From the NCBI GenBank assembly GCA_019244745.1, contig JAFASF010000134.1, positions 1 through 36,503 on the forward strand: a DNA stretch of 36,503 nucleotides, given 5' to 3'. A program made the position numbers and the translations under genes. The notes beneath the pieces are model-generated. The model was given only the letters and a program-made list of their open reading frames with translations. It made no database searches and was not told where the DNA came from. Source of the stretch: Solirubrobacterales bacterium (lineage in GTDB: Bacteria > Actinomycetota > Thermoleophilia > Solirubrobacterales > Solirubrobacteraceae). Below are positions 17,035 through 18,351 of the stretch, piece by piece. The first letter of the stretch is position 1. Every line of letters starts with the position of its first letter.

Positions 17035-18087
17035 TCAGCCGAGCCCGGTCCGCCTGAGCACGCTCGCCGCCGCGCGCAGCGGCAGTGACTGGCGCGAGCC
17101 GACCGCCGGCAGCCGGGCGCCCTCGCGCTCGCGATACCAGGCAATGGTCTCCTCCAGGGCGTCCTCGTGCGGCGAAGTGCGCCATCCCAGCTGTTCCTTG
17201 GCTTTGGTGTTCCTGAACGCCCAGGTCAGCGAGGCGGCGCGGATCTCCGGCGGGGGCGGCATCCGTGGGCCCATGCCGGGAACACGCTGCCCCGCCGCGG
17301 CCAGCGCGAGCGCCACCGGGACGGGGAGCTTCACCGCCGGCGGCTCCACCCCGGACAATCGGCCCAGGTCGGCGAACAGCCGGTCCAGCGTGTAGTTCCG
17401 ATTCCCCAGGATGTACCGCTCCCCCACCGTCCCGCGTTCATCGGCCAGCAGGTGACCGCGCGCCACGTCCTCCACGCCGACGATGTTGAGCGTTCCGTCC
17501 ACGTAGGCCGGAATTCGGCGCAGCATGAACCGCCGCACCAGTGCCGTTGAGGAGCGTCCCGGATCGCCCGCCCCCAGCGCGTACGTCGGGTTGACGATCA
17601 CCAGCGGGAGCCCGCGGACGACCAAGCGCAGCGCCATGACCTCCGCCTCGTGCTTGGAGTCCACATAGGCGATCCCGTAGCGGCCGGCATCCCAGACGTT
17701 CGTCTCATCGGCGGTGGAGCCCTTCGGAGCGGGTCCGACCGCGGCGACCGACGAGGTGTAGACGACGCGCTGCACGCCGGCTCGGAGTGCCTCCTCGAGG
17801 ACGATACGGGTGCCCTCGAAGTTCAGCGCGAACGCCTGCTCGCGGGGCAGCCCGAGATTGGTGGTGCCGGCGGCGTGAAAGACGCGATCGACGCCCCCGA
17901 GCGCCCGCCGGATCGATTGCCGGTCGCGCACGTCCGCGCGCGCCTGTTCGACCGGGAGGCCGGCGAGGGCGTCGAGTCTGGAATCCGCACGAACGGTGAC
18001 CCTCACCTCATCGCCTCGCTCGACGAGCAACCGGGTGATGTGCGACCCGATGAAACCGGTCCCGCCGATAATCAGCGTGAGGGGCAC
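17035..18087 (-). CDS. NAD-dependent epimerase/dehydratase, extended SDR (HpnA-like)
   Basis: LIIGGTGFIGSHITRLLVERGDEV, VVYTSSVAAVG, YVDSKHEAE (YxxxK), VIVNPTYALGAGD. Confidence 0.88.
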   Translation of the reverse strand: MPLTLIIGGTGFIGSHITRLLVERGDEVRVTVRADSRLDALAGLPVEQARADVRDRQSIRRALGGVDRVFHAAGTTNLGLPREQAFALNFEGTRIVLEEALRAGVQRVVYTSSVAAVGPAPKGSTADETNVWDAGRYGIAYVDSKHEAEVMALRLVVRGLPLVIVNPTYALGAGDPGRSSTALVRRFMLRRIPAYVDGTLNIVGVEDVARGHLLADERGTVGERYILGNRNYTLDRLFADLGRLSGVEPPAVKLPVPVALALAAAGQRVPGMGPRMPPPPEIRAASLTWAFRNTKAKEQLGWRTSPHEDALEETIAWYREREGARLPAVGSRQSLPLRAAASVLRRTGLG

Positions 18088-18106
18088 CTCAGCAAGCCCA
18101 GTGTAA

Positions 18107-18269
18107 GTGGTTCTCTTCGTAAGTACGGCGACACCGAGAGGCGTCCCTGGCGGATGACTGTCGAGGACGCAGCGAGCGTGGCGTACCTGGAAGGTATGCG
18201 AGCGAGCGAGGACGAAGACAGGCGCCGTCAGGGCGGCTCGAATGTCGTCGTATTTGCGAAGAGGACCAC
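18107..18269 (+). ncRNA. Putative structured RNA: ~163-nt extended hairpin in the divergent intergenic region upstream of degV
   Basis: Arms 18107-18133 and 18243-18269 form 27 consecutive pairs (23 Watson-Crick, 4 G-U). Inner helices: CGAG/CTCG, CCCTGGCGG/CCGTCAGGG, CTGTC/GACAG, GCGTACC/GGTATGC, with TGGAA loop at 18188-18192. Confidence 0.65.
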
Positions 18270-18351
18270 GAGACCGGGCCGTGATCCTGGCCAGGACTCA
18301 AGCCCAGCTCAACTCCTCGCACGCTGCTATTCGCCAAGCTAGGGTCCCGCC

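Follow-up and report, generated by a model that had tools for sequence, protein, structure and literature searches.

A dispersed hairpin element of Solirubrobacterales that covaries as one folded strand and is probably mobile

Results

The 36,503-nt stretch analyzed here (contig JAFASF010000134.1, positions 1 to 36,503, of Solirubrobacterales bacterium assembly GCA_019244745.1; referred to below as the window) carries a long hairpin between an epimerase gene and degV. This hairpin is one copy of a repeat that is dispersed, is absent from orthologous sites, and is inserted at CTAG-like sites, most of them stop codons; its + strand forms a single covarying hairpin with a near-invariant, G-A-rich core. 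We consider it probable that the repeat is a non-autonomous mobile element of ~164 nt, the folded single strand of which is recognized by a trans-acting enzyme. The original prediction, which was made from the letters of the window, had described the hairpin correctly, as was confirmed here; the actual object is larger than could be seen there, namely, a dispersed repeat.

In the window, the element occupies 165 nt of the + strand (18106 to 18270), with boundaries drawn from an alignment with nine other uninserted copies (A1) and from two models described below (R1 and R2); these ends agree with the AGT...ACT termini of other copies. Its 5' arm (18107 to 18133, +) and 3' arm (18243 to 18269, +) form an unbroken, ungapped helix of 27 bp, made up of 23 Watson-Crick and 4 G-U pairs with no A-C, and the arm positions covary among copies. 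The original prediction had argued from the G-U pairs that the + strand is the one that folds, and RNA folding of 18100 to 18276 on both strands bore this out: the + strand was clearly more stable, reaching -105.8 kcal/mol (z -11.96; equaled by 0 of 200 shuffles), versus -68 kcal/mol (z -4.2) for the - strand. Within the hairpin lie the 5' half of a conserved purine core, AGGACGCAG (18164 to 18172, +), an apical hairpin with a short loop (18178 to 18200, +), and the 3' half of the core, CGAGGACG (18207 to 18214, +). In an alignment of 26 sequences from across genera (A2), the 5' half is invariant or nearly so, the 3' half is nearly invariant, and the apical helix, located from the fold, covaries in 7 of 7 pairs. 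The junctions, placed by comparing copies and given no strand, read TGTAA on the left (18100 to 18106), where most copies are CTAG- or CTNAG-like, and CACGAG on the right (18269 to 18274), where most copies read CACTAG. A search with Rfam covariance models, which the original prediction had proposed, found no matching family: neither a group II intron nor any other Rfam RNA was matched at the gathering score in the window or at an E value of ≤1 in 18050 to 18350.

The element is repeated in its own genome (G000), which comprises 4.89 Mb in 463 contigs. BLAST with the element returned 27 matches there, and this genome holds more than 30 diverged copies, the uninserted ones being ~162 to 168 nt long with mostly AGT...ACT termini. 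A covariance model built from ten copies (R1; 62 pairs, 32 of them with double changes) gave 56 matches in the same genome, a minority of which hit a copy already matched on its other strand, and had matches in 43 of 61 genomes of relatives. Presence inside the window's genus was patchy, which fits mobility. With a broad model (R2), the superfamily was detected in 137 of 232 genomes and in 44 of 54 genera of the order; the E values of both models are rough, and the weaker R2 matches include a shorter class. Members of that class (~105 to 118 nt) have the same core within other arms and lack the CTAGTG ends (L299, L308, L316, L335, L356, and L364; partial R2 matches in G129, G053, and G125). 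The original prediction had named many identical copies with target-site duplications as the mark of an entity like a miniature inverted-repeat transposable element (MITE). Copies are indeed numerous genome-wide; they are not identical, however, having diverged, and the possible target duplication spans only ~2 to 4 nt (TA or CTAG).

A scan for the core pattern AGGACGCAG...CGAGGACG in one genome per species found at least 117 stretches, and a long hairpin surrounds the core at 59 of those loci. The hairpin-bearing loci came mostly from metagenome-assembled genomes titled Solirubrobacterales, Solirubrobacteraceae, Thermoleophilia, Acidimicrobiia, or Actinomycetota, with one from an isolate, Conexibacter sp. 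CPCC 205762 (L266). Elements identical between relatives of the window's genome and Solirubrobacteraceae records (e.g., L286 and L200) suggest Solirubrobacteraceae as the probable family of the window. Viral contigs held 37 stretches with the pattern, none of them a comparable long hairpin (best arm score, 13), and plasmid and phage collections gave no match to the element. A literature search, with preprints and most subscription journals outside its reach, turned up no account of such an element tied to Solirubrobacterales or Thermoleophilia or fitting its general description. Apparently, these mobile elements, which fold on one specific strand, make up a superfamily not described before and spread across soil actinobacteria.

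Between genera, the arm sequences are unrelated; what the copies have in common is their length, the CTAGTG...CACTAG ends, and the core. In A2, 88.8% of cells were paired, versus 37 to 42% when the partners were slid, and the covariation check suggested by the original prediction revealed double compensatory changes in 42 of 47 pairs, a result as good as which was obtained in 0 of 500 shuffles. Column pairs 17/161 and 43/136 were G-U in most sequences. The arms at 25 places in the own genome summed to 99 G-U versus 3 A-C, in a set that came from ordinary DNA similarity (BLAST), so the search did not build in a strand bias; among 1,778 arm positions in 60 model-found copies of relatives, the counts were 209 G-U versus 15 A-C. 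Of 138 copies, 137 had the foldable strand as the more stable one, the median advantage being 26 kcal/mol under RNA parameters and 11.6 kcal/mol under DNA parameters.

The purine core, AGGACGCA...CGAGGAC, was near-invariant among copies. GGACGCA was present in 128 of the 138 copies and both core halves stood in order in 126, counts that are partly inflated because later copies had been found by the core. The original prediction had rightly singled out this purine-rich zone and its possible tandem G-A pairs; judging from the sequence, the core may form a helix of tandem sheared G-A pairs, with GGAC opposite GGAC and further GA/GA steps on either side. Taken together, the covariation, the excess of G-U over A-C, and the near-invariant core strongly support the earlier suggestion of selection on the + strand fold, and the best reading is that the selected form is a folded single strand. 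Because two of the column pairs are predominantly G-U, we lean slightly toward RNA over single-stranded DNA as that form.

The epimerase-degV junction of the window measures 264 nt, that is, 99 nt plus the 165-nt element. In genomes G002, G005, G021, and G025, the same two genes are adjacent across a junction of roughly 45 to 90 nt that lacks the element, and no element was seen upstream of degV in relatives with enough sequence. In G008, degV instead has a copy at its 3' end, which starts at the TAG stop codon and has CTAG on both sides. The original prediction had suggested an independent small RNA or a 5' leader of degV; neither is supported, and a degV leader or riboswitch in particular is refuted, given the four empty orthologous junctions, the many unrelated loci, and the mixed orientation of the copies.

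The flanks of 77 copies gave the consensus (C/T)(T)A-GTG...CAC-TA(G/A), the hyphens marking the element ends: on the left, A precedes GTG in 63 copies and T stands at -2 in 42, while on the right, T follows CAC in 58 and TA in 53 (A at +2). No target duplication of ≥4 nt beyond the CTAG-like flanks was found in these 77 copies. Using a simple codon-usage gene caller, we placed a gene 3' end within 8 nt of 55 of 83 copies, and one copy fell inside an open reading frame. The + strand of the element was antisense to the touching gene in ~38 cases and sense in 22; with orientation mixed and leaning antisense, a role as a sense-strand 3' untranslated region was rejected. At two or more loci, copies stand in opposite orientation in two species, which indicates independent insertions. 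The single orthologous copy found (L151 in G023 and L172 in G022) has ~5 differences in 166 nt (~97% identity), with flanks at ~90%. L174 (G018) and L185 (G000) have similar flanks (GACGA.GAGTT.GTCCA; GAGTCTA) and may represent one insertion or site shared by the two species.

A 65-nt hairpin module, AGCCGGATGACTCGGGCGCGGCCC...GCCGAGCGGGCCGCAAGCCCGAG, has 34 matches in the own genome (L032 to L061, e.g., G000:C246:3157-3221). It sits inside many main copies, at several positions and, where tested, always on the same strand, the foldable strand of the host element; in 10 of 14 cases examined, it takes the place of 4 to 5 nt of that element. A second hairpin family, GGTTCGTGGGAAAATGAGATC...GTCATCCAGGCC... 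(L043, L046, L049, and L051), also hosts the module. Short palindromes centered on GCATGC occur in arrays with the module alongside (L048, L054, and L057).

Discussion

We propose that a putative trans-acting enzyme recognizes the folded single strand through its shape and core motif, not through its arm sequence, and would insert the element at a CTAG site with a duplication of roughly TA to CTAG. With recognition by shape and core, selection would keep the pairing, the tolerance of G-U, and the core while the arm sequence drifts. The host would tolerate the copies because the neighboring stop codon is usually left intact. A more specific version, in which the machinery is neither HUH/Y1 nor IS630-type nor a known reverse transcriptase, and in which the element extends across Thermoleophilia and Acidimicrobiia and nests smaller hairpin modules on one strand only, is a tentative proposal that we place somewhat short of an even chance.

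Candidate mobilizer genes were sought in 28 genomes of the window's genus, which are incomplete assemblies, using PF13358 (DDE_3, IS630), PF00078 (RVT_1), and PF01797 (Y1_Tnp). None of the three tracks the element among these genomes, and all were rejected as mobilizers for this lack of association. PF00078 had no match in the element-carrying genomes G010, G007, G018, and G019 and 11 matches in the element-free G011; a retroelement was rejected because reverse transcriptase genes do not follow the element.

Several observations weigh against the mobile-element explanation. The search yielded no mobilizer: neither PF13358 nor PF01797 occurs in the own genome or in several element-rich relatives, and reverse transcriptase genes do not follow copy number. 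The window copy itself has no clean CTAG pair at its junctions. Read-through from abutting genes would run into the - strand at ~38 copies and into the + strand at 22, so at most loci it is not obvious that the + strand would be transcribed, which favors single-stranded DNA.

Single-stranded DNA is the substance of the strongest alternative, which is itself a branch of the preferred explanation: an element moved at replication forks by an IS200/IS605- or REP-like logic with a different enzyme. In the complete genome G119 (C1, 5,953,270 bp, with coordinate 1 at dnaA-dnaN-recF-gyrB-gyrA), the first half has 12 copies, 11 of them on the - strand, and the second half has 7, all on the + strand; in 18 of the 19, the foldable strand is opposite to fork movement, that is, on the leading-strand template. 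Neighboring copies on one contig agreed in strand in 16 of 21 cases in other genera, and DNA parameters also make the same strand the more stable one. However, the window's genus showed no such signal (4 of 10 neighboring pairs agreed), none of the element-rich genomes of the genus had PF01797, and placement on the leading-strand template is the reverse of that of IS608 and ISDra2, whose transposed strand is favored on the lagging-strand template (PMC5371812). The strand bias is striking in a single complete genome, moderate across other genera, and missing from the own genus; it is a lead and not proof, and movement at forks appears possible but rather unlikely.

A conventional MITE derived from a DDE transposon of the IS630/Tc1-mariner type, duplicating TA within CTAG and folding strand-specifically only as a by-product, would account for the CTAG...CTAG ends of copies, and IS630 has been described as preferring TA within CTAG as its target (Tenzen and Ohtsubo 1991, cited in PMC2170065). 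The specific binding of terminal inverted repeats by a transposase of this family (PMC2170065) is nonetheless hard to reconcile with arms that share almost no sequence beyond GTG...CAC across genera. Moreover, DDE_3 had no match in the element-rich genomes G000, G005, G007, G008, G009, and G026, whereas the element-free genomes G006, G011, G012, G015, and G024 do carry a DDE_3 gene. Neither the 209:15 ratio of G-U to A-C nor the near-invariant internal core is predicted by a MITE of this kind, which we judge improbable.

Arms might also be kept complementary without selection through quasi-palindrome correction, i.e., template switching in hairpins, which is a recognized neutral route to concerted change in both arms. 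Such correction should remove G-A mismatches too, yet these are among the most conserved positions, and it does not predict majority G-U columns; we consider it highly unlikely to be the explanation. Least credible of all is a cis-acting leader or small RNA for degV, or a 3' untranslated regulator of host genes, which could draw on the strong fold upstream of degV, the copies adjoining gene ends, and the closer identity of the G022/G023 orthologs than of their flanks but is contradicted by the empty sites, the unrelated neighbors, and both orientations to the abutting gene.

If the mobile, folded-strand explanation holds, this is a very large family, with dozens of copies in some genomes and members in most genera of an order, that is missing from Rfam and from the phage and plasmid collections searched. 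Its mode of recognition, in which structure is kept, sequence is free, and a near-invariant non-Watson-Crick core is presented on one strand, would differ from that of sequence-specific terminal repeats. It would make it possible to test which form of a bacterial hairpin repeat moves, RNA or single-stranded DNA, and would point to a novel mobilizer in a poorly studied class.

Comparison with known systems

The CTAG target and possible TA duplication recall IS630-type MITEs (Tc1/mariner superfamily), from which the present element differs in having no matching transposase in its own genome, a strand-asymmetric covarying fold, and no sequence-conserved terminal inverted repeat: only CTAGTG/CACTAG is common, and the arms differ between genera with pairing kept. 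REP/BIME sequences are likewise palindromic, numerous, and mainly downstream of coding regions, and their RAYT Y1 transposase recognizes single-stranded DNA strand-specifically (PMC3733652). REPs, however, are 20 to 40 bp long and carry GTAG or CGTC as a tag at one end, whereas the unit here is 164 nt (162 to 168 nt among copies) with CTAG-like sequence at both ends, and no Y1 (HUH) transposase was found in element-rich genomes of the genus.

ERIC, YPAL, and NEMIS are stem-loop repeats of ~100 to 170 bp, some of which act as RNA hairpins (PMC2267715). Our element is a stem-loop repeat of similar length. To our knowledge, those families keep arm sequence similarity and have no structural core common to many genera, whereas here the arms diverge and the core is common across many genera. 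Finally, bcr1 and other repeats of the Bacillus cereus group are short (100 to 400 bp) and dispersed, show features of mobile elements, have a target motif specific to the family, and are predicted to share a fold (PMC6542083; PMC2267715), all of which liken them to the element described here. The bcr repeats are tied to TTTAT and to one species group; in contrast, the present junctions are CTAG-like, the arms are nearly free in sequence, the G-A core is near-invariant, and the distribution is order-wide and beyond.
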